Source: a virus
Virus record (IMG/VR): IMGVR_UViG_3300021964_000047
Span: 1 to 64,000 of that record
Direction: 5' to 3' (one strand)
DNA length: 64,000 nt
Shown: positions 22,845-64,000 of the stretch, in pieces
Position numbering within the stretch: the stretch's first letter is position 1
Layout of the letters: each line of letters begins with the position of its first letter
Made by a program: the position numbers and the translations under genes
The notes under the pieces: generated by a model
The model's input: only the letters and a program-made list of their open reading frames with translations
Database searches by the model: none
What the model was told of the DNA's origin: nothing

Positions 22845-22908
22845 CAAAGTCCAGTGAGCAATCGCTCCCCGCAGGGAAGGCACGGGGTTACAGGTGTCTT
22901 TGTTTTTT
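22843..22908 (+). ncRNA. Structured RNA between ssb and uvsX
   Basis: An outer stem AACAAAG/CTTTGTT (22843-22849 with 22898-22904) encloses two hairpins: GAGC-AATC-GCTC (22856-22867) and CCCCG/CGGGG (22867-22887, sharing one base). A T-run follows. The fold resembles a three-way junction ending like a terminator. It could be a terminator or attenuator that lowers uvsX expression, a processed 3' end, or a small RNA. No known class is recognised. Confidence 0.45.
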
Positions 22909-22923
22909 CATTGGAGGCCCATA

Positions 22924-24033
22924 GTGGGAAAAGTTTTAAAAATGGCAAAAGCAGGTAAATTAGATCTGAACTCAATGAAGTCTCTGATCAACAAGACCAC
23001 GGGCATGAATGTAGCCCATAGTCTTGAAGAAGATAACCCAACGGCAGTAAAGGACTGGATCCCAACCGGTTCTCGTTGGTTAGACTCTATTATCTGTAAA
23101 GGCAAAATGGCAGGTATTCCCGTCGGAAAGGTAACTGAGATTGCTGGTCTTTCAGCCTCTGGTAAATCCTTTATGGCAACTCAAATCGCTGCCAATGCTC
23201 AGAAGAAAGGTATTCAAGTTGTTTATTTTGATGCTGAGTCGGCAATTGACCCTGATTTCCTTACCAGAGCAGGCGTTGATAATAGCGAGTTGCTTTACAT
23301 TCAGGCAGTTTCTGTTGAGAAAACTCTCAATCAAATCGAGACCCTAATGACCAATTATCCTGACACTCAGTTTTTGTTTATTTGGGACTCAATTGCTGCC
23401 ACAGCCTCCGAGAAAGATATTGAAGGCGATTTTAATCCACAATCGTCTATGGCTGTCAAGCCTCGTATCTTCTCAAAGGCATTTCCAAAGTTAACGATTC
23501 CTCTTGCGGATTCACAATCAACTTTGGTTCTCATCAATCAGCTTAAGCAAAACATTTCCTCAAATGTTGCTGAAATGATGACGACACCTTATATTGCTCC
23601 CGGCGGTAAGGCTATTGAGTATTTCTGTTCTCTGCGTATTTGGCTCACAAAACGTAAAGCAAAGGCTTCCTTTGTTGAGAACGAAAAAGGTGTCCGAATT
23701 GGCTCCGAGACCAAAATAAAAATTGAGAAATCTCGATTTGGTTCTTATGGTCGAACATGTACCTTCAAAATCTTATGGGGAGATGATGTCGGTATTCAGG
23801 ATGAGGAGTCATGGCTCGAGGCAATCAAGCTGTCAGGAACCGACAGACTTAAGCGAGCCGGTGCTTGGTATACCATTGTGGGCTCTGATGGTAAAGAATT
23901 CAAATTCCAAGCCTCTAAGTGGATTGAACAGCTTCAGGATGAAGCCTTCCGAGCTGTTGTGTATGATATCATGGACAAAGAAATCATTGAGAAATATGAT
24001 AACGATGGAAGTGATATTGATATCGGTGAATAA
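22924..24033 (+). CDS. uvsX: UvsX-type RecA-family recombinase
   Basis: A 369-residue strand-exchange protein. The GTG at 22924 is chosen because TTGGAGG lies 6 nt upstream; an upstream in-frame GTG at 22894 falls inside the structured intergenic RNA. Walker A is GLSASGKS (about 73-80). Walker B-like strand FLFIWDSIAAT and a loop with INQLKQNIS follow, as in RecA/UvsX. It would form filaments on DNA covered by the gp32-like SSB and start recombination-dependent replication. The C-terminus is acidic. A strong terminator follows. Confidence 0.92.
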   Translation: MGKVLKMAKAGKLDLNSMKSLINKTTGMNVAHSLEEDNPTAVKDWIPTGSRWLDSIICKGKMAGIPVGKVTEIAGLSASGKSFMATQIAANAQKKGIQVVYFDAESAIDPDFLTRAGVDNSELLYIQAVSVEKTLNQIETLMTNYPDTQFLFIWDSIAATASEKDIEGDFNPQSSMAVKPRIFSKAFPKLTIPLADSQSTLVLINQLKQNISSNVAEMMTTPYIAPGGKAIEYFCSLRIWLTKRKAKASFVENEKGVRIGSETKIKIEKSRFGSYGRTCTFKILWGDDVGIQDEESWLEAIKLSGTDRLKRAGAWYTIVGSDGKEFKFQASKWIEQLQDEAFRAVVYDIMDKEIIEKYDNDGSDIDIGE

Positions 24034-50544: not shown

Positions 50545-50768
50545 TATATCTATTGATTGCATTGGCTCTCGCTGAGGAGCCGTCACCTGTTATCGTCTAT
50601 AAACAGGAAACAGAGATCGACTTCGAAGCTGTTGACATTGAAGGGCAACTTGTCAAGCCCGAAGGGACCTTGGTCCAAGAAAGACAAGAAGCAACATTCA
50701 ATCCTCTCATTAAATTGAGAATGGATTGGGATGAAGAAATTTCACAAAGCGTTAGCGAAATCAAATAA
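50541..50768 (+). CDS. Small exported protein with VEGQLVKPEG motif
   Basis: A 75-residue protein. The ATG at 50541 follows GGGGAG. The first 13 residues (MIYLLIALALAEE) are signal-like. The mature part, EIDFEAVDIEGQLVKPEG, then QEATFNPLIKLRMDW and SVSEIK, closely recalls a short motif I know from secreted proteins of Myxococcota and related bacteria. This suggests acquisition from, or a shared protein with, such a host. Function unknown. Confidence 0.6.
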   Translation: MIYLLIALALAEEPSPVIVYKQETEIDFEAVDIEGQLVKPEGTLVQERQEATFNPLIKLRMDWDEEISQSVSEIK

Positions 50769-50778
50769 TGGAGGAATA

Positions 50779-52353
50779 GTGAAGCATTATAATAACGGTC
50801 AAGAATTATCAACAAAAGTATTAAACGGAGTTAACAAACTCGCAGACAATGTAGGATCAACATTGGGCCCTCGGGGAAGAACCGTCGGCATTATGTATCA
50901 GGGAGAGAACATCCCAATGGTAACGAAGGACGGCGTGACCGTCGCAGAACATATAACCTTTGAAGATCCTTTTGAGAATATGGGAGCACAGATTGTAAAG
51001 CAAGCAGCTAAGCAATCAGCATCAAATGCCGGAGACGGAACGACAACGGCAACCATTCTCACTCGTGGTATTCTAAACCGAGCACAGAAGTATATCGTGG
51101 CTGGTGCTTCACCAACCGAAATCAAGCGAGGAATGGATAAGGCTTGCGAGGCAATTGTAACAAACCTCAAGGAAATCGCAAGACCTGTCCAATCCAAGCA
51201 AGACATTGAGCATGTCGCAACCATCTCGGCGAACAACGACAAAGGCATCGGAACCCTTATTGCCAATGCTGTTGACTCTGCTGGAAAGGACGGCTCCGTT
51301 CTCGTTGAAGAAGCGAGGTCAATCAATACATCACTGGATCTCATTGAAGGATTCAGAATTGATCAAGGCTGGTTGTCTTCAAAGTTTATTACAAACGAGA
51401 GACAGAACACAGCCGAGTATCATGATCCTTTGATTCTTATCACAGATGAGCAGATTGACACCGTTGAGCAAATCTATCCTGCACTTGAGCTTGCAGCGAA
51501 AGATCAACGTCCTCTTCTGATTGTCGCCAATGAAGTAGAAGGCCAAGCACTCGCAGCTCTAATTGCAAATGCTGTCCGAGGAACCATGAAGGTGTGTGCT
51601 GTCAAATCGCCACGCTATGGTGAAGAACGACGCTCTATTCTAAGAGATTTGGCCGCAACTGTCGGAGGGGTATTCATTACCCGTGAAGATGGTTTGCTTC
51701 TAAAAAACGTTCAATTAAAGCAATTTGGAAGGTCAAAGTCGGCAACCATTTCCAAGTTCGCAACGACTATTGTTGGAGGACAAGGTAATGAAGAAACTAT
51801 TGAGACACGAATTGAAGCAATTAAAAACGAGATTCAAGAAACGGAAGACATGGCAACGTGCGAAAGATTGCAAGAACGAATTACAAGGCTGGCTTCTGGT
51901 GTTGCTGTTATCCGTGTGGGTGCTGCGACCGAAGTCGAAATGATTGAGAAGAAACATAGAATCGATGACGCTCTTGAAGCTGTTCGCTCTGCTTTGGAAG
52001 AAGGTATTCTTCCCGGTGGTGGTGTTGGTTTGTTAAGAGCATCCGTTGGTCTTTATGTTGAGACTGATAACGAAGAGCAAGCACTTGGAGCTAAGATTAT
52101 CCTCGACGCAGCCCAAGAGCCTTTGCGACAATTGTGTGTCAATTCAGGCGAATCTCAAGATCTAATTCTTGATGGTGTTGTTCATAAGTCTCGAGACGAA
52201 GGTTATAATTTTCTTACAAGAAACTATGTAAACATGCTTGACGAAGGAATCATTGATCCTTGCAAAGTAACACGCTGTGCTCTGCAAAATGCTGTGTCAG
52301 CCGCATCAACTTTATTAACAATGAACTATGCTATTGTAAGCACGAAGGACTAA
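50779..52353 (+). CDS. groEL: GroEL-type chaperonin
   Basis: A 524-residue full-length Hsp60. The GTG at 50779 follows GGAGGA. STLGPRGRTV, TKDGVTVA and AGDGTTTATIL form the ATP site, with the magnesium-binding Asp in DGTTT. The apical domain (about 180-370) and a C-terminal GGGVGLLRA are in place. The flexible GGM tail of bacterial GroEL is missing. With the GroES-like gene at 32519 the phage could form its own folding chamber, probably for the large sheath or capsid proteins. Confidence 0.95.
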   Translation: MKHYNNGQELSTKVLNGVNKLADNVGSTLGPRGRTVGIMYQGENIPMVTKDGVTVAEHITFEDPFENMGAQIVKQAAKQSASNAGDGTTTATILTRGILNRAQKYIVAGASPTEIKRGMDKACEAIVTNLKEIARPVQSKQDIEHVATISANNDKGIGTLIANAVDSAGKDGSVLVEEARSINTSLDLIEGFRIDQGWLSSKFITNERQNTAEYHDPLILITDEQIDTVEQIYPALELAAKDQRPLLIVANEVEGQALAALIANAVRGTMKVCAVKSPRYGEERRSILRDLAATVGGVFITREDGLLLKNVQLKQFGRSKSATISKFATTIVGGQGNEETIETRIEAIKNEIQETEDMATCERLQERITRLASGVAVIRVGAATEVEMIEKKHRIDDALEAVRSALEEGILPGGGVGLLRASVGLYVETDNEEQALGAKIILDAAQEPLRQLCVNSGESQDLILDGVVHKSRDEGYNFLTRNYVNMLDEGIIDPCKVTRCALQNAVSAASTLLTMNYAIVSTKD

Positions 52354-54605: not shown

Positions 54606-55295
54606 ATGCGGTACATCAAACATTTATTATTAGGGATCATTGCTCTTTCTTTAATGGGCATTGGTCCCTTTTTCGGTTCAATAGACCATATTGACAAGGC
54701 TAGATCATCTTACATGATTAATTGCTTTGCCAATGATAAATTAATCGGAGCAGGCTCTGGGAATCATTTTACTTATCGAGGGCAGAAGTTTGTTCTTACT
54801 GCTTATCATGTAATCCAAGAGTGTGACAAAATCCTTGTTATTGAAAACAACGATCAAGTTTTTAAATTAAATGCGGTTGTTGTTGATGAACTATTAGACT
54901 GGGCTGTCTTAAAACCAGAGCAAGATCTTGTCTTGAGACCAGTTAAATTTAAAAGAACTTATCCTAGATTAGGAGAAGCAATCGATATGGTATCTTGGCC
55001 TTCCGATTACGGAATGGTTTACACAAAAGGTATTGTTTCCGGCCAACAGTACTTGAGCTATTATGTTCAAACATTCTGTTGGCTTGGATCATCCGGAGCT
55101 TCTGTGTTTACAGATGACGGAAAGTTTGTCGGAGTGCTTCATGGAATTAAGGTTGGATATTATTCAAGTTTAGGCGATGGCCAACTTTTAAATAATATGT
55201 GCTTGGTTCGCCCGCTTGCTAGCATTACCGATAAAGATTTATATGAGGCACTGCGAGACTATGACGGAGGTGAAGCAAGGCACATTACTTACTGA
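54606..55295 (+). CDS. Exported trypsin-like serine protease
   Basis: A 229-residue protein. Residues about 5-24 are a signal peptide or anchor (LLLGIIALSLMGIGPF). The chymotrypsin-fold triad is visible: His in LTAYHVIQ (about 67), Asp in LLDWAVLK (about 98) and Ser in GSSGASVF (about 162). It would act in the periplasm or at the surface. A late-type motif upstream suggests expression late in infection, perhaps for envelope breakdown, processing of virion proteins or protection of progeny. Exported proteases are unusual phage cargo. Confidence 0.8.
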   Translation: MRYIKHLLLGIIALSLMGIGPFFGSIDHIDKARSSYMINCFANDKLIGAGSGNHFTYRGQKFVLTAYHVIQECDKILVIENNDQVFKLNAVVVDELLDWAVLKPEQDLVLRPVKFKRTYPRLGEAIDMVSWPSDYGMVYTKGIVSGQQYLSYYVQTFCWLGSSGASVFTDDGKFVGVLHGIKVGYYSSLGDGQLLNNMCLVRPLASITDKDLYEALRDYDGGEARHITY

Positions 55296-55482
55296 CCAAG
55301 GGAAGGTAGGTATTGTGATCAAGATTTACAAAATAGGAGCAACCTCCGAAGAATACTCTGGTGAACAAAAGATTCATTGGGAAGAATCTTATCACATTTA
55401 TTATTCAGACGGCAACCACGCTTATATTAATAAATCAGCTTTTGATATTTTAGTTATAACAGGAGACATTAAAATTTTATGA
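55261..55482 (+). CDS. Small SH3-like protein ('QGTLLTDQGKVGIV')
   Basis: A 73-residue protein overlapping the protease end. VKQGTLLTDQGKVGIVIKI fits the small SH3-like family, followed by a strand with YHIYYSDGNHAYI. The start (ATG 55261 or GTG 55270) is uncertain because the ribosome site GGAGG lies between them. Confidence 0.5.
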   Translation: MTEVKQGTLLTDQGKVGIVIKIYKIGATSEEYSGEQKIHWEESYHIYYSDGNHAYINKSAFDILVITGDIKIL

Positions 55483-56498: not shown

Positions 56499-56714
56499 AT
56501 GTTACCATTAAATGTAGGTATATTCGGAGAATATGAAAAGCGTTTTGAACAACGCAAAAAGAATATGGCGGCTTATGCTGCTTTGTGCCAATTCGTCGAG
56601 AGCATGGGAGATTATCCCGACACTGACGATCCCGCTGTACAGGCTTTAATTGATAAATTGTGGGATGAAATGATCGAGCAACTCGAAAAAGTTCGTGATG
56701 TTTCAGAGCAATGA
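56499..56714 (+). CDS. Small helical protein
   Basis: A 71-residue protein at ATG 56499 after GGAGGA. It is helical and acidic (ALIDKLWDEMIEQLEKV). No family. Its stop overlaps the ATG of the next gene. Confidence 0.7.
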   Translation: MLPLNVGIFGEYEKRFEQRKKNMAAYAALCQFVESMGDYPDTDDPAVQALIDKLWDEMIEQLEKVRDVSEQ

Positions 56715-56995
56715 GAGCCATGATGCCTCATGAAAGATACCAAGATGTTGACATTGGTGATCTCATTATATTATCAAAAGATAAATATGCAGCCAAGCGA
56801 TACTTCGGAGAAGTGCAGATTGTAACTTGGGTTCCGCACAATTGGGCCGGAAGGACAAGGATAGTACATTTCGATCAGAACGATTGGATCGAGGTTCACT
56901 CTATCAAGCGGAACCAAAAATGGCATGTTCGTCTCGGAGAGTTCGAGGTCTTAAAGAAATATAAAAAAAACATCTTGACAAATAATATAGAATAG
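56711..56995 (+). CDS. Small SH3-like 'IGDLI' family protein
   Basis: A 94-residue protein. VDIGDLIILSKDKYAAKRY, then FGEVQIVTWV and TRIVHFDQNDWIEVHSIK, follows the family order. ATG 56711 or 56720 may be used. Function unknown. Confidence 0.65.
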   Translation: MRAMMPHERYQDVDIGDLIILSKDKYAAKRYFGEVQIVTWVPHNWAGRTRIVHFDQNDWIEVHSIKRNQKWHVRLGEFEVLKKYKKNILTNNIE

Positions 56996-59277: not shown

Positions 59278-59320
59278 ACTAACATCAGCAATTCCGCTGT
59301 TCTAAACTATGGAGGCCACG

Positions 59321-60238
59321 ATGGCCAAACGACAATGCGATTACTGCAAAGGTGATCATACTGAAACAAAATGCCCTCACCTTGAGGGTTGGATGACGCA
59401 TTTCATCAACATTATCAACCTGAACCGTACCAATCAGTATCCTAGTCTTTCTTTTGATTTGGCGACTGCTTTCGATCTATATCCGCTCGGCACATTGTGG
59501 GATAGATTTAACTCGTCTGCGACACAATCCGATTATCTCGGCAAAACACATTGGTTATGGTGGAGCATGGTGAGATCTTACAAAAAGCGGCTAAACTATA
59601 AGAAAGCCGGAGAGAAACGCAGAGGCCAAAAGCGAACTAGATCCGTTCGTTGCGGTTACTGCGGCTCCACAGGCCACACTCGTCGTACTTGTTCCGATTA
59701 CAAGAGCCATGTTGTAACTTTGAAATCTGATACTACCCTCCGTAGGGCTATGTTCGTTGATGCTTGTCGTGAGATAGGTCTAGGCAAGGGCACTTTGTTG
59801 AAATTCACTCTCGGCAAAGAAGGGCGAGAGTACAGAGATAACGGTTGGCTCAAGGATACCGAAGATGAATTTTTGGCTATGGTTATGGAAATACCGGTAG
59901 CAAACATCAATGCTTTCACGAATTCTAACCGTTGGTCGGACTTTTACGAGAGTGCTCATATTATTTGCAAGCCTCTTGCATCAACCAATAACAGAGGTAC
60001 GGTCAGTTTATTTGCCAACAACTCTGTCTTTAACGGTGCTTTCGCTAAAATCACAGAGCAAAACCACACCCCACATTACAATAGTCTGTGGGAGGTTGAG
60101 ATCGTGTCAGCCTCGAAGGATCAATCTTGGAATGAGGCCAATGCCGATGAATACTTGGACATCCTTAAGAAAAGAGAGAAGTCTATCGTTCGTTCCTATG
60201 TGGAGGCTGCAAGTCAATGGCTAGAACAAAACCGCTAG
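59321..60238 (+). CDS. Zinc-knuckle protein
   Basis: A 305-residue protein; the ATG at 59321 has GGAGG 5 nt upstream. Two knuckles are visible: an N-terminal CDYCKGDHTETKC (Cx2Cx3Hx4C) and CGYCGSTGHTRRTC (Cx2Cx4Hx4C, about 112-125), preceded by a basic stretch (KRRGQKRTRSVR). The C-terminal half is a mixed domain of unknown fold. Such knuckles usually bind single-stranded nucleic acid. RNA or ssDNA binding in early infection is plausible. Confidence 0.75.
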   Translation: MAKRQCDYCKGDHTETKCPHLEGWMTHFINIINLNRTNQYPSLSFDLATAFDLYPLGTLWDRFNSSATQSDYLGKTHWLWWSMVRSYKKRLNYKKAGEKRRGQKRTRSVRCGYCGSTGHTRRTCSDYKSHVVTLKSDTTLRRAMFVDACREIGLGKGTLLKFTLGKEGREYRDNGWLKDTEDEFLAMVMEIPVANINAFTNSNRWSDFYESAHIICKPLASTNNRGTVSLFANNSVFNGAFAKITEQNHTPHYNSLWEVEIVSASKDQSWNEANADEYLDILKKREKSIVRSYVEAASQWLEQNR

Positions 60239-60513
60239 TAATAGGCGACCTTGTGTCGTTCCAATCCACCGTTCTATCAGAACAAAATGTTTATCAAAAG
60301 AACTATTCCGATGAACGCAAGATCGGTATGGTTGTGGACACAATGGGTAAAGATATGGTCAAGGTTCAATGGGTCAGCAAGGCTGTCGAGCCTTGTTGGT
60401 ATCAGCGAAAAGCCTTGAGGAAACTGGATACTCAAAAAAGTTTAAATTTTTGCTTGACATATTTCATAAAACAGGATACATTATTTACATCAACAGCAAT
60501 GGAGGCCATATGA
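60217..60513 (+). CDS. SH3-like 'IGDLV' family protein
   Basis: A 98-residue protein. PLVIGDLVSFQSTVLSEQ, then KIGMVVDTMGKDMVKVQWVS, has the core family pattern. The last 25 residues lie over the next promoter and may be less constrained. Confidence 0.7.
   Translation: MARTKPLVIGDLVSFQSTVLSEQNVYQKNYSDERKIGMVVDTMGKDMVKVQWVSKAVEPCWYQRKALRKLDTQKSLNFCLTYFIKQDTLFTSTAMEAI
60454..60482 (+). promoter_or_regulatory. Sigma70-type promoter of the VGDLV array
   Basis: TTGACA, 17 nt, then TACATT in an AGGATACATTAT context, inside the end of the previous frame. Confidence 0.75.
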
Positions 60514-60686
60514 AACAAGGCGATCTAGTAAAACTCAAGGGCAATGATACCCTATACATTATAAACCATTTAACAAAACTCGGCCAAACCGATGTTGCAG
60601 CAATCACGCCAGTCGAAACAATGGACTGGTCGATGACTTGTGTATACCCCTTATCAAGACTGGAGAAATGTAATGAAAACGGGTGA
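60510..60686 (+). CDS. SH3-like 'QGDLVK' family protein
   Basis: A 58-residue protein with GGAGG upstream, beginning MKQGDLVKLKGNDTLYII. It ends YPLSRLEK, a shared C-terminal feature of the family. Overlaps its neighbours. Confidence 0.75.
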   Translation: MKQGDLVKLKGNDTLYIINHLTKLGQTDVAAITPVETMDWSMTCVYPLSRLEKCNENG

Positions 60687-60852
60687 TTTAGTGCGATGTA
60701 TTTACAAATACGGAGGGCATGATAACTGCCGTCTGTATGGAAAGATAGGACTTGTCGTTGCCTCCTACACTATGGGGCCGTATGTCGATGTTTTGATAAA
60801 CAACGAGATACATATGATGCCTTGTCGGAGACTGGAAAAGATATGCAAGTAG
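60673..60852 (+). CDS. SH3-like 'TGDLVR' family protein
   Basis: A 59-residue protein, MKTGDLVRCIYKYGGHDN, then LYGKIGLVVASYTMGPYVDVL and a CRRLEK end. Its first 20 nt are identical to those of the gene at 63162. Confidence 0.75.
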   Translation: MKTGDLVRCIYKYGGHDNCRLYGKIGLVVASYTMGPYVDVLINNEIHMMPCRRLEKICK

Positions 60853-61064
60853 GCGATTTAGTAAGACACAACGGCTCCGGCCCTGTCGGATGGAAGATGC
60901 AAGGTGCTATTGGTCTCATAACCAAACACGAAGCGTGGACTAACGGTGGGGAGCATATCACTGCGGAATGGCGTATTTTGTGGGTTTCCAAGTGGGTGAC
61001 CGACTGGTACAAAGAGGTTCTATGGTACGACACAGAATTGGAGGTGATAAGTGAAAGTCGGTGA
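60843..61064 (+). CDS. SH3-like 'VGDLVR' family protein
   Basis: A 73-residue protein, MQVGDLVRHNGSGPVG, then GAIGLITKHEAWTNGG and WRILWVSKW, ending LEVISESR. The same EVISESR end occurs in 63162-63344. Confidence 0.75.
   Translation: MQVGDLVRHNGSGPVGWKMQGAIGLITKHEAWTNGGEHITAEWRILWVSKWVTDWYKEVLWYDTELEVISESR
61041..61064 (+). repeat. 24-nt gene-junction repeat, copy 1
   Basis: GAGGTGATAA followed by GTGAAAGTCGGTGA, covering one gene's end and the next gene's GTG start, is identical to 63321-63344. Confidence 0.9.
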
Positions 61065-61275
61065 CTTGGTAAGAACAAAGCAGCAATCTTGGATGCACGA
61101 TGACTACGACGATAGCGACTTTGGCTTTGTTGTAAACATAGGTCTAATCTACAAGATTGACGAGACAGGTGTTTGGGTTCGCCACAATGGCGGCCTCCCC
61201 TGTAACGAAGGCATACGATTATTCTATCATTTCGAGATAGACAGAGATTTGGAGGTGGTTTATGCGACGACCTAA
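61051..61275 (+). CDS. SH3-like 'VGDLVR' family protein (GTG start)
   Basis: A 74-residue protein, MKVGDLVRTKQQSWMHDD, then FGFVVNIGLIYKIDETGVWV. GTG start after GGAGGTGATAA. Confidence 0.75.
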   Translation: MKVGDLVRTKQQSWMHDDYDDSDFGFVVNIGLIYKIDETGVWVRHNGGLPCNEGIRLFYHFEIDRDLEVVYATT

Positions 61276-61432
61276 GATAGGTGACTTGGTGACTTGTAAA
61301 CTTTGGCTTGAGCCAGAAATGGCTGTGGTGGTCTCGTTCCTAACGGATCATTTGGCCACAATTATGATGACCGATGGTAGTGCTCGCAATCAGTTTTTAT
61401 GGGAATTGGTGGTGCTCAATGAAGGTCGGTGA
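61262..61432 (+). CDS. SH3-like 'IGDLV' family protein
   Basis: A 56-residue protein, MRRPKIGDLVTCKLWLE, then MAVVVSFLTDHLATIMMTDG and LWELVVL. It overlaps both neighbours. Confidence 0.72.
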   Translation: MRRPKIGDLVTCKLWLEPEMAVVVSFLTDHLATIMMTDGSARNQFLWELVVLNEGR

Positions 61433-61574
61433 TTTGGTAAGACATACAGAACTCGGTTGGCTCGGTATCGTAACGGCCAAGACACTCGTTCACAACGGAC
61501 ATGTTTGGTATCGTATCTATGCCAATGGTATTTCTATCGAGTATACATCGAGCAAATGGGAGGTCGTCAAATGA
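61419..61574 (+). CDS. SH3-like 'VGDLVR' family protein
   Basis: A 51-residue protein, MKVGDLVRHTELGWLGIVTA, then HVWYRIYANGISIEY and KWEVVK. The first 20 nt match the gene at 62233. Confidence 0.75.
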   Translation: MKVGDLVRHTELGWLGIVTAKTLVHNGHVWYRIYANGISIEYTSSKWEVVK

Positions 61575-61825
61575 AAACAATAATACATGTAAATCAGCAC
61601 ATTATCAAAAAGAATAGGAAGGAACAGGATAATCAGCCCGTCCTTACCTGTAAGACATACAAGTCCAATAATTACGGCCATGAGGCGATTATTCGGGACA
61701 AAGAGGGCAATGAGGTAGCAAGGGTCATCTATCGTCCGGACAAACCACTATCCTGTGGGGCACATGTTTGGATAGAAACTACCCTACCGGTCGAGGTCAT
61801 AAATAAAAATAAAAAAAATACTTGA
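61571..61825 (+). CDS. Conserved-type phage protein (HVNQH...LSCGAHVWIET)
   Basis: An 84-residue protein, MKTIIHVNQHIIKKNRK, then PVLTCKTYKSNNYGHEAII and YRPDKPLSCGAHVWIET. I recall this as a widespread phage/prophage protein of unknown function. It is not in the GDLV family. Its VEVINKNKKNT end is copied at 62406. Confidence 0.72.
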   Translation: MKTIIHVNQHIIKKNRKEQDNQPVLTCKTYKSNNYGHEAIIRDKEGNEVARVIYRPDKPLSCGAHVWIETTLPVEVINKNKKNT

Positions 61826-61862
61826 CAAACTGCTACCCCCGTGATACATTACTAACATCAAC
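61788..61862 (+). repeat. 75-nt promoter-bearing direct repeat, copy 1
   Basis: It includes the last codons of one gene and the whole promoter of the next, and is nearly identical to 62369-62443. Most differences are in the -35/-10 spacer. Confidence 0.88.
61822..61850 (+). promoter_or_regulatory. Sigma70-type promoter
   Basis: TTGACA, 17 nt, then TACATT with extended TGA, within the 75-nt repeat. Confidence 0.8.
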
Positions 61863-61882
61863 AACGAACACAGGAGGCCACA

Positions 61883-62233
61883 ATGGCCCTTAAGGTATAT
61901 GTAACTTATATGCAAGACTGGTCTAATGGCGAGGCAGAGCCACTCTCAACCCATGTAACAGAGCAAGGTGCAAAAAAGCGACTAATTGACTATCTCACCT
62001 CTCACATGAGAGAATTGATACGATGGTCTGATCTTTCTGATCTCGACGATTGGCTTGCCGAAACTCTTGATAGTTTCGGTGCATCGTGGAATGGATATGA
62101 TCATACAGTCACAGACCTAGCGGAGGCCGATATAGATAAACTTTGGAATACTTTGTATGAATACAATGATGAAATTGCCGATACTTACGGCTCGGCTTGG
62201 TACAATTATTCAACACACGAACTGGAGGGATGA
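61883..62233 (+). CDS. Uncharacterised acidic protein
   Basis: A 116-residue protein with AGGAGG upstream, acidic and helical (SDLSDLDDWLAETLDSFGAS). No family recognised. Its stop overlaps the next gene's start. Confidence 0.68.
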   Translation: MALKVYVTYMQDWSNGEAEPLSTHVTEQGAKKRLIDYLTSHMRELIRWSDLSDLDDWLAETLDSFGASWNGYDHTVTDLAEADIDKLWNTLYEYNDEIADTYGSAWYNYSTHELEG

Positions 62234-62406
62234 TGAAGGTCGGTGATTTGGTGCGAGTGACCTTCTCCGATGGAGAGGTGGTCATTGGCGAATTCTATAA
62301 AAATGAGCGAGGGTTCATCGTAATACTCTCGCACGGCATAGAGGTTCCTTTCAGAGAAGGCACAGCAACGGTCGAGGTCATAAATAAAAATGAAAAAAAT
62401 ACTTGA
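62233..62406 (+). CDS. SH3-like 'VGDLVR' family protein
   Basis: A 57-residue protein, MKVGDLVRVTFSDGEVVIGE, then RGFIVILSHGIEVPF, ending VEVINKNEKNT like the unrelated gene at 61571. Confidence 0.75.
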   Translation: MKVGDLVRVTFSDGEVVIGEFYKNERGFIVILSHGIEVPFREGTATVEVINKNEKNT

Positions 62407-62443
62407 CAAATTACTACTACCGTGATACATTACTAACATCAAC
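62369..62443 (+). repeat. 75-nt promoter-bearing direct repeat, copy 2
   Basis: Second copy of 61788-61862. The two flank a gene pair, which suggests duplication by unequal recombination. Confidence 0.88.
62403..62431 (+). promoter_or_regulatory. Sigma70-type promoter
   Basis: TTGACA, 17 nt, then TACATT with extended TGA, within the second repeat copy. Confidence 0.8.
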
Positions 62444-62461
62444 GAACAATACGAGGTTCAA

Positions 62462-62644
62462 ATGCAAATAGGCGATTTAGTAAAACACAAACTTAACGAA
62501 GATCTCAACGGAAAGATTGGATTGGTAACCGCTATTCACAAAGGTATGACCTACGGTCGGCAACCATATCACATTGTCAATGTTCTATTCGGCAAGCACA
62601 CATACCAAGTTAGAGCCGAACTCTTGGAGGTATTATGCAAATAA
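62462..62644 (+). CDS. SH3-like 'IGDLVK' family protein
   Basis: A 60-residue protein, MQIGDLVKHKLNEDLNGKIG, then LVTAIHKGMTYG and HIVNVLFGKHTYQV, ending LLEVLCK. Confidence 0.76.
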   Translation: MQIGDLVKHKLNEDLNGKIGLVTAIHKGMTYGRQPYHIVNVLFGKHTYQVRAELLEVLCK

Positions 62645-62796
62645 AAGTCGGAGATCTTGTGAGACACAGGTATTTCACCAAGTATGGCGTTGGCCTAGTG
62701 TTAGATGTCGGCACAATCTATGCTGGCATAAAATGGATTAAAGCCGAACACGGCTATAGATCCCAAAGGGTCGAGAACCTAGCGAGGGTCAAATGA
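62635..62796 (+). CDS. SH3-like 'VGDLVR' family protein
   Basis: A 53-residue protein, MQIKVGDLVRHRYFTKYGVG, then LVLDVGTIYAGIKWIKAEH. Overlaps both neighbours, with GGAGG in the end of the previous gene. Confidence 0.75.
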   Translation: MQIKVGDLVRHRYFTKYGVGLVLDVGTIYAGIKWIKAEHGYRSQRVENLARVK

Positions 62797-63014
62797 ATAA
62801 TGATACTTGGGAGAGAGATCCCGGCCTAGACTTGATTGTAGGCGACTTGGTTGCCATTCGCAAGCACCACACTTATGGTGGAACCATCGGTGTTATCACA
62901 AAGGTTGTCGTTCCTCGCAAGCAGTTTTGGGTACACTGGCTATCTAACGAGCGGTTATCGACATTATGCACTTATCGGCTCATCGAGCCAGTCAAGGAGG
63001 ACAAATGCAAATAG
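62793..63014 (+). CDS. SH3-like 'VGDLV' family protein
   Basis: A 73-residue protein, DLIVGDLVAIRKHHTYGG, then TIGVITKVVVPRKQFWVHWLS and YRLIEPVK. Confidence 0.75.
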   Translation: MNNDTWERDPGLDLIVGDLVAIRKHHTYGGTIGVITKVVVPRKQFWVHWLSNERLSTLCTYRLIEPVKEDKCK

Positions 63015-63175
63015 GCGATTTAGTACGATGTGGACACCACAAAGGCATTATTATTCGGGAAGGCATGGAGGAATTCACAGGGAGAGGCCCCGTATGGTTT
63101 CACATCCTGTGGTTCGACGGTCAACATGGATGGAAACATAAAATGCTATTGGAGAAGGTCGATGAAAACGGGTGA
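63005..63175 (+). CDS. SH3-like 'IGDLVR' family protein
   Basis: A 56-residue protein, MQIGDLVRCGHHKGIIIREG, then VWFHILWFDGQHGWKHKM and LLEKVDENG. The first 20 nt match the gene at 62462. Confidence 0.75.
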   Translation: MQIGDLVRCGHHKGIIIREGMEEFTGRGPVWFHILWFDGQHGWKHKMLLEKVDENG

Positions 63176-63344
63176 TTTAGTTAGACGAAGGAACAATGGG
63201 GATCTTGCGATTGTTATTGAGACCGAGTGGATTGAAGGAGCATATGGGCGAAATTGGCCCGAAAAGGTCAATGTGCTTACAATGCGGGGATACAAGCAAT
63301 ACTGGTTCCCTGTTGAGTGTGAGGTGATAAGTGAAAGTCGGTGA
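63162..63344 (+). CDS. SH3-like 'TGDLVR' family protein
   Basis: A 60-residue protein, MKTGDLVRRRNNGDLAIVIE, then EKVNVLTMRGYKQYWF, ending EVISESR. Confidence 0.75.
   Translation: MKTGDLVRRRNNGDLAIVIETEWIEGAYGRNWPEKVNVLTMRGYKQYWFPVECEVISESR
63321..63344 (+). repeat. 24-nt gene-junction repeat, copy 2
   Basis: Identical to 61041-61064. Confidence 0.9.
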
Positions 63345-63516
63345 TCTTGTCATGGCATCGTGGTACGAATGTGATGATGTAAAGTATGGTGTCATAACCG
63401 ACATTCGTGCCGATGGGTACTTGGCTCGTATTCACTGGATGGATGGAACAATCGGCCTCCTCGATGATAGTTGGTTCAAAGTAATCAGCAATGATCGAGA
63501 CAATAAAAAAACTTAA
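63331..63516 (+). CDS. SH3-like 'VGDLV' family protein (GTG start)
   Basis: A 61-residue protein, MKVGDLVMASWYECDDVKYG, then VITDIRADGYLARIHWMDG and WFKVIS. Confidence 0.75.
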   Translation: MKVGDLVMASWYECDDVKYGVITDIRADGYLARIHWMDGTIGLLDDSWFKVISNDRDNKKT

Positions 63517-63525
63517 ACTTTTTTC

Positions 63526-63554
63526 TTGACAAATGAAACCTAACAGGATACATT
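63526..63554 (+). promoter_or_regulatory. Sigma70-type promoter
   Basis: TTGACA, 17 nt, then TACATT in an AGGATACATTAC context. Confidence 0.77.
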
Positions 63555-63609
63555 ACTTATATCAGACGAACTGATACTACCCCCCTACCGCCAACCAAAG
63601 GAGATTGAC

Positions 63610-63975
63610 ATGGCGTTTTTAAAACCAAACTTACTGATTTTTATTCAAAACAATGGCAAGCCTATCACGGCTATCGTACAGAAGGTCGCTTTCCGCAGAT
63701 ACTGGGGAAAGGGAAAGAACGACGATGGAAAGAAGGTTCGCAAGCAACGCTCGATGCCTTATGCTATATGTAGCGTCATTATGTCACAAGACGAGCAAGT
63801 AAAGATGGGAGCACAATTCACAATTGCTGGCTATATGCTCCAAAATGTCGAGGTCAAGGGCAAAACCTCCCTCGCTTTCCGCAGCAAGTATGTAGCCGAG
63901 TTTGCCGATAAAATGGGGAACGAATGGGTTCAGAGGATGATCAACGAGGAATTTAATCATGATACCGAGCAGTGA
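63610..63975 (+). CDS. Uncharacterised basic protein
   Basis: A 121-residue protein with AAAGGAG upstream. A basic stretch (RRYWGKGKNDDGKKVRKQRS) is followed by beta-type segments. It may bind nucleic acid. It overlaps the partial gene at the window end. Confidence 0.65.
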   Translation: MAFLKPNLLIFIQNNGKPITAIVQKVAFRRYWGKGKNDDGKKVRKQRSMPYAICSVIMSQDEQVKMGAQFTIAGYMLQNVEVKGKTSLAFRSKYVAEFADKMGNEWVQRMINEEFNHDTEQ

Positions 63976-64000
63976 TTATGTCCCACAGATAGGGGATCTA
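63959..64000 (+). CDS. Partial SH3-like 'IGDL' family protein (cut by window end)
   Basis: Fourteen codons, MIPSSDYVPQIGDL, are visible before the window ends. The frame overlaps the previous gene and begins like the GDLV family, so the array continues beyond the window. Confidence 0.6.
   Translation, partial: MIPSSDYVPQIGDL

Follow-up and report, generated by a model that had tools for sequence, protein, structure and literature searches.

We found that the small genes clustered towards the end of a 64,000-nucleotide stretch of viral DNA (the window) share a joint made of their own overlapping coding ends, at which most gains and losses of whole genes occur. The window is bases 1-64000 of the 73,207-base IMG/VR virus record IMGVR_UViG_3300021964_000047, the remainder of which was also retrieved. 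The genes form an array of 27 members, all on the plus strand, that reaches record position 68107 (profile E<=2.1e-4), and each cassette is typically a single gene with about 50-75 codons. A clade-wide profile found zero members on the minus strand of the 73,207-base record, and a possible degenerate member lies beyond the array at record position 72674. The reading that we consider probable is that this is a shuffled cassette array of single-domain binders with an SH3/KOW fold, probably host-directed, which are joined by an adapter of ~33 nucleotides (nt) lying within coding sequence.

Two joints in the window match exactly a degenerate nucleotide pattern that is described below.
61038..61070, plus strand: joint, TTGGAGGTGATAAGTGAAAGTCGGTGACTTGGT, with a ribosome-binding site in the codons for Leu-Glu-Val (LEV), the next start, and Gly-Asp codons containing a TGA stop
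63318..63350, plus strand: joint, second exact pattern match in the window (sequence)

The upstream gene reads TTGGAGGTGATAAGTGAAAGTCGGTGACTTGGT as L-E-V-I-S-E-S-R-stop; the downstream gene, whose frame is two away, reads it as (GTG)M-K-V-G-D-L-V. At this joint, GGAGGTGAT is the ribosome-binding site of the downstream gene, and the TGA stop of the upstream gene sits within the downstream gene's GGT-GAC codons. The start region of the joint is RTG-AAA-GTC-GGT-GAT, which encodes M-K-V-G-D and carries the TGA of the preceding gene. Consecutive members overlap clade-wide by 14 nt (n=623), 4 nt (n=115) or 10 nt (n=47); in the 10-nt form, as read from the window, a TAG stop lies within GTA-GGC. Among 508 distinct 14-nt joints from 86 loci, information is limited to positions -13 to +20 (~33 nt). 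DNA identity between members of the same array is 27% outside the joint, which is the level expected by chance, versus 60-90% inside it, and exact runs of at least 12 nt occur in 43% of member pairs within the joint versus 0.04% in a control stretch. The ~33-nt joint is the sole DNA common to the members of one array.

The use of codons at gene ends depends on what follows. The Glu of LEV is encoded by GAG in 96% of members whose next member overlaps by 14 nt, in 66% of those that no member follows, and in 44% of cases elsewhere; an LEV[VI] end, likewise tied to the neighbor, is present in 70% versus 26%. The LEKV/EVI ending that an earlier note on this DNA had listed as a feature of the proteins is, on these statistics, largely a nucleotide feature, namely the ribosome-binding site for the gene that follows. 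Both alternative frames of the start region contain stops in 61% of members, versus 26% expected from ordinary codon use; this excess is mostly the overlap viewed from the other side and is not independent evidence. The joint has no stable hairpin and folds no better than shuffled sequences, and no Rfam match was found in 52-64 kb. In one related locus (L027, 6522-6938), the only such case seen, two members are fused in frame into a protein of 138 amino acids with a remnant of the joint in its middle, as expected because a joint read in one frame cannot stop the preceding gene.

When arrays of close relatives were compared, as the earlier note had proposed, gains and losses were indeed seen, of whole genes and mostly at the joint. 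All 12 clean indels that carry members have a member start within the sequence shared at the breakpoint, which is 13-35 nt long (for example, TGAAAGTCGGTGATTT), and each gains or loses one to four whole genes. Since the filter for clean indels demands shared sequence at the break, we repeated the analysis without it. Member starts coincide with 16 of the 26 unfiltered member-carrying indels by the strict criterion of the script; read by eye, about 18 of the 26 are at the joint, four are at promoter repeats, and the others are elsewhere. Among indels without members, 4/42 are near a member start, and 15% of array bases belong to the joint. Binomial chances calculated for these breakpoints ignore shared ancestry and are rough only.

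The earlier note had proposed that 15 genes with starts from 60217 to 63959 belong to one family, and each of these proved to be an open frame that encodes the G-D-L motif and has a ribosome-binding site close by. They are listed here with the evidence in brackets.
60217..60513, plus strand: member 1, 98 amino acids, long C-terminal extension (E 9.4e-8)
60510..60686, plus strand: member 2, the weakest by sequence (E 2.1e-4; AlphaFold model of five strands, predicted local distance difference test score, pLDDT, 92.1)
60673..60852, plus strand: member 3, 14-nt overlap with the preceding gene (profile, sequence)
60843..61064, plus strand: member 4, 10-nt overlap, the preceding TAG stop lying within its GTA-GGC codons (profile)
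61051..61275, plus strand: member 5, 14-nt overlap, GTG start (profile)
61262..61432, plus strand: member 6, 14-nt overlap (profile)
61419..61574, plus strand: member 7, 14-nt overlap (profile)
62233..62406, plus strand: member 8 (profile)
62462..62644, plus strand: member 9, AlphaFold target (pLDDT 89.9, predicted SH3-like barrel; profile)
62635..62796, plus strand: member 10, 10-nt overlap (profile)
62793..63014, plus strand: member 11, 4-nt overlap (profile)
63005..63175, plus strand: member 12, 10-nt overlap (profile)
63162..63344, plus strand: member 13, 14-nt overlap (profile)
63331..63516, plus strand: member 14, 14-nt overlap, GTG start (profile)
63959..64000, plus strand: member 15, continuing past the window to 64192 (profile); 12 further members follow, up to 68107

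A profile was built from the 27 array members of this genome, leaving each out in turn, and all 27 left-out members outscore the best of 1,440 shuffled decoys. When the motif and everything before it are removed, 11 of the 27 still outscore all decoys, so the kinship of the weaker members rests mainly on the N-terminal strand. To judge from these sequence comparisons, the array family is real, with its weaker members joined chiefly by the first strand. Profile searching joins all array members and extends the family to related viral loci. Searches with single members or with the consensus, at the sensitivity applied, gave no significant match among 50,697 records of cultured phages.

The members that had been suggested outside the array fared unevenly. 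Those at 35.7, 55.3 and 56.7 kb beat the decoys with the own-genome profile, and about half of the scattered set is weak. The clade-wide profile matches those at 40.9, 55.3, 56.7 and 57.7 kb weakly (E 0.006-0.07) and does not detect those at 35.7, 53.1, 55.8 and 58.9 kb.
56711..56995, plus strand: scattered member, weakly supported (E 0.0056)
55261..55482, plus strand: scattered member, weakly supported (E 0.0065)

Downstream of the array are genes for a DUF2201 metallopeptidase/VWA-like protein (record 68215-69444) and an AAA ATPase (record 69695-70789), a pair that occurs jointly in most related loci. Searching viral contigs with these two flanking genes yielded 159 loci, or 160 with the present record (2.6 Mb); some of them overlap or repeat, and match counts are thus not independent. 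In these loci the 27-member profile gives 1,309 plus-strand versus 0 minus-strand matches at E<=1e-3, and a second-round profile gives 1,918 versus 2, with matches in 158 of the 160. The loci that include 9 kb upstream of the ATPase have 0-27 members in that stretch. All 20 whole records (73-204 kb) contain matches, 2-26 each. The carriers, with up to about 30 of these tiny genes, are tailed phages that form a large, uncultured and mostly marine group. The profile finds no member in MH319757, a marine virus from a single cell whose tail sheath is related.

The joint can also be recognized from its nucleotides. A 27-nt degenerate IUPAC pattern, scanned without protein information, matches at least 120 viral-contig stretches and has 7 matches in 257 Gb of prokaryote genomes, and among the matches listed profile-supported members are present in 126 of 127 pattern loci. 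Six of the seven prokaryote matches hold members and resemble phage contigs binned into draft genomes; the seventh (L287) holds none and was taken as a chance match. In CP070664.1, the "chromosome" of a metagenome-assembled genome (MAG) of candidate division WOR-3, bacterial genes give way across a run of N to phage-like genes with members, and this sequence probably contains a misjoined phage contig. In a single pattern locus, a contig from an Acidiferrobacteraceae MAG (L285), members lie on both strands and form two divergent groups.

Gene content changes faster in the array than around it. The proportion of shared members (at least 50% identity) is 2% between loci whose ATPases are 70-80% identical, 7% at 80-90% and 38% at 90-100%. 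Loci whose backbone genes are 75-90% identical have almost no members in common. Long non-member genes in the same stretch are shared at 13%, 25% and 70% in the same bins, which indicates that the entire region is fluid, and the members most so. Between the window phage and two loci whose ATPase is 79% identical to its own (L006 and L007), none of eight comparable members is shared. The ratio of nonsynonymous to synonymous substitution rates (dN/dS) of orthologous members, with overlapping ends masked, is 0.08-0.37 (pooled 0.27), and the members are therefore working genes that are not decaying and that show no visible positive selection. On these values, positive selection was rejected as the source of diversity. 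The family had been described as fast-evolving, and it is the membership of the arrays that changes fast, the orthologues themselves being under purifying selection.

The provenance of the members was examined by comparing copies in 116 representative loci with 1,417 members. At 80% identity or more, no member has a copy in its own locus, and 124 have one in another locus, in 12 cases in a locus whose ATPase is <70% identical. Even at 70% identity or more, own-locus copies are found for only 4 of the 1,417. Recent tandem duplication was thus rejected as the main source; because near copies are in other phages and not in the own locus, exchange among phages appears to have contributed more to the set than recent local duplication.

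Two models support the small-barrel fold that had been suggested. AlphaFold predictions, for which family members served as the input alignments, gave five strands for the sequence heading a 100-member alignment (window 62462-62641; mean pLDDT 89.9) and five strands again for member 60510-60686 with a smaller family alignment (pLDDT 92.1). Both are predicted small barrels of SH3-like type. Profile searches against solved structures match NusG (2xhc, E 1.7e-4, which falls to E 0.049 with another alignment; 2lq8, 0.0055), Spt5 (0.0032), and also the KOW domain of ribosomal uL24. Foldseek matches in the PDB are all small barrels, at the level of fold only (E>=0.04), and include KOW, SAWADEE/Tudor, chromo-barrel, CAP-Gly, HspQ and UvrD Tudor structures; against viral predictions the best match has E 0.0025, and most are unnamed phage proteins. 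No Pfam model is above its curated cut-off among the members scanned, those of the window included; PF00467 (KOW) is matched by 4 of 100 members, below the cut-off, with a best E of 0.002 for one protein against the library. The members are thus predicted to be SH3-like small barrels whose relation to KOW is remote at most. They are like the KOW/SH3-like barrel domains of NusG, Spt5, uL24 and the N-terminal domain of T4 MotB in their five-strand barrel models and, with one of the two alignments, in the profile match to NusG, but unlike KOW proteins they stand alone, at 50-75 residues, with no NGN or other partner domain. Their isoelectric points span 4.2-10.2 (5th to 95th percentile), a range more in keeping with varied partners than with a single role in nucleic-acid binding for all of them, although it is not proof.

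The array is well supplied with candidate promoters. As had been noted earlier, they are of sigma70 type; 33 TTGACA-type promoters are on the plus strand of the 73 kb and 2 are on the minus strand, and 22 are located at or after 52.6 kb. Many are near-identical 45-nt blocks with a terminal GATACATTA, and they divide the array into short operons. Four examples in the array are as follows.
60454..60482, plus strand: sigma70-type promoter, TTGACA-17-TACATT (sequence)
61822..61850, plus strand: sigma70-type promoter, extended -10 (TG) (sequence)
62403..62431, plus strand: sigma70-type promoter, extended -10 (TG) (sequence)
63526..63554, plus strand: sigma70-type promoter (sequence)

Terminator-like sites in 56-64 kb number 7 versus 5.9 by chance, and none is just upstream of an array promoter; the folds tested for hairpins are weak, with one of six significant by z-score. 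At record 64248-64463 and 64715-64921, two members that begin MKRIGT resemble recent paralogues, each with a near-identical promoter block directly upstream and a 14-nt-overlapping member next. This pair is likely a promoter-to-promoter duplication.

The shuffled-cassette reading starts from one family with one predicted fold, whose ends interlock, which gains and loses whole genes at the joint, and whose members are under purifying selection and move among phages. In each pair of neighbors, the L-E-V codons at the 3' end of the first gene would serve as ribosome-binding site for the second, and the first gene's TGA stop would come from the start region of the second. Recombination between adapters could then remove, add or exchange whole genes while the neighbors would keep start, stop and ribosome loading, since both ends of nearly every member carry the same adapter. 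The adapters would be the main short homologies, because member interiors are almost unalignable at the DNA level. The phage's own UvsX-like protein, together with a gp32-like single-strand-binding protein (SSB) that the record also encodes, may carry out this recombination on the short joints.
22894..24033, plus strand: UvsX-like recombinase, a possible engine of short-homology exchange (phrog_97, E 5.3e-61)

Reassortment of the pooled modules among related phages would far outpace the divergence of the backbone, and each module would be kept by purifying selection while present. Each barrel may be a small binder of a host or phage protein or of nucleic acid, presumably made early from strong host-type promoters, and the host processes or defenses affected would vary with array content. 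More tentatively, and at somewhat less than an even chance, we propose that the protein motif is itself the cassette joint, and that an open-ended pool of single-fold binders is reassorted without a site-specific enzyme to give 10-30 host-directed adaptors per lineage.

Several points weigh against the shuffled-cassette reading. The joint is partly forced, as the GGT codon and the stop coincide in the overlapping frame and a ribosome-binding site is needed anyway; its conservation could reflect tight packing rather than selection for exchange. Non-member genes of the region also turn over fast, though less than members. Breakpoint counts are small, and they include a comparison (L042/L140) that repeats another (L042/L143) and a locus (L045) that is counted twice; the figure of 18/26 is a count by eye, versus 16/26 by the strict criterion, and about four member-carrying indels break at promoter repeats instead. 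The wide range of isoelectric points does not tell which partners the proteins have. The function of the barrels is something that we infer rather than something that the analysis demonstrates, and expression and its early timing are read from promoter sequence.

A bank of host-takeover or anti-defense proteins is a possible explanation, though less likely than not. Its barrels would inhibit or adapt host RNA polymerase, the ribosome, proteases and defense proteins, and an arms race would select for variety. The many strong sigma70-type promoters in front of small proteins recall the SPO1 host takeover module, a set of about 26 genes, most of them small, that are served by strong promoters and ribosome-binding sites (PMC6873191). 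Like that module, the array is a cluster of small genes behind host-type promoters; unlike the module as described there, the array is one paralogous family with a common joint, and it is known from sequence whereas SPO1 functions have been tested. Fold neighbors bind RNA polymerase or the ribosome (NusG KOW, UvrD/PcrA Tudor, Mfd) or Lon (the adaptor HspQ), and there is a precedent in the early protein MotB of phage T4, which acts on DNA bound by H-NS and has a predicted KOW domain (PMC7827196). The quick turnover in gene content also fits such a bank. However, dN/dS values of 0.08-0.37 reveal no positive selection among orthologues, a defense-library search gave no significant match, and the fold is a generic one that serves many tasks.

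The array might instead be an old family of tandem duplicates, in which the joint is an inherited tight operon boundary and the indels are products of ordinary unequal crossing-over. This explanation, which we judge unlikely, gains from the fact that conservation of the ribosome-binding site, start codon and motif is expected in any case, and from the occurrence of 4-nt and 10-nt overlaps. It is at odds with the rarity of own-locus copies when close copies are present in other phages, with the dependence of the LEV/GAG signature on the downstream neighbor, and with the dominance of a single overlap length across 86 loci, and the observed mixing of members argues against it. A still less likely alternative is a passive or selfish pool, whose short genes multiply since the joint permits harmless insertion and which offers the phage little benefit. 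High turnover, joint-driven exchange and near-identical members in phages with distant backbones are what such a pool would produce, but the purifying selection on orthologues (pooled dN/dS 0.27, ends masked) already speaks against it; moreover, frames are intact throughout, the array is kept in 158/160 loci, and high-identity copies within one locus are lacking, unlike in a spreading selfish repeat. An integron-like or other site-specific system, in which a recombinase would act on the joint, is very improbable: one-gene cassettes, a repeated joint and exact whole-gene indels point towards one, but the joint lacks a stable hairpin and an Rfam match, and the length shared at breakpoints varies as homology predicts and not as a fixed crossover site would.

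Some further genes of the record are of note. The backbone includes a contractile tail sheath, a DnaB-like helicase, ribonucleotide reductase, GroEL and a DnaE-type polymerase. The closest cultured relatives have <46% identity in GroEL, <34% in DnaE and <37% in the sheath, and the phage is placed outside every well-known group because cultured relatives of these three proteins are all below 46% identity. Its GroEL gene is at window 50731-52353, and the protein has at most ~46% identity to any GroEL of the cultured-phage collection. No DNA similarity of 56-64 kb to cultured phages was found. A pair of paralogues of ~300 amino acids (window 59309-60238 and record 65634-66485) flanks the first part of the array. 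Each has two zinc-knuckle-like C-x2-C-x3-GH-x4-C motifs, the zf-CCHC match of the second being near the cut-off. Zinc knuckles are, to our knowledge, unusual in phages.

Integron gene cassettes are exchangeable single-gene cassettes in arrays, separated by a shared recombination site. The present array likewise has exchangeable one-gene cassettes and a common exchange site, but its joint is not a folded attC and lies within coding sequence, and its genes are translationally interlocked and of one family. In T4-type phages, promoter early stem-loop elements (PeSLs) are short repeats between hyper-variable accessory genes and serve as shuffling sites (Arbiol et al. 2010; Comeau et al. 2014; cited in PMC4503421). 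As far as that account of PeSLs goes, the array likewise has short repeats at which genes are shuffled; repeated sigma70-type promoters are present and mark about 4 of 26 member-carrying indels, most of which are at the coding joint. The main difference is that array promoters have no preceding terminator stem-loop; hairpins of the PeSL type were looked for before them and not found. Also unlike PeSLs as described there, the main exchange site is in coding sequence and couples ribosome-binding site, start and stop, and the genes shuffled are all of one fold. That phage accessory genes are shuffled as modules at short repeats is already known in kind. What is new in form is an exchange site that consists of the interlocked coding ends of genes from one single-fold family, and a literature search, which left out preprints and most subscription journals, found no described array of this kind, in agreement with the earlier note.

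Previously described joints lie between genes, whereas this one is made of the genes' own coding ends, and such a joint would explain the in-frame gain and loss of dozens of small genes that overlap one another. The conserved ends of proteins from phage mini-genes should be interpreted with caution, as they can be ribosome-binding sites rather than traces of protein function. The 27-nt pattern is a searchable signature (correct at 126 of 127 loci among the matches listed), and the family offers thousands of compact SH3/KOW-like proteins, probably host-directed, for functional screens. The array may also be a model for the origin and spread of tiny "orphan" phage genes.

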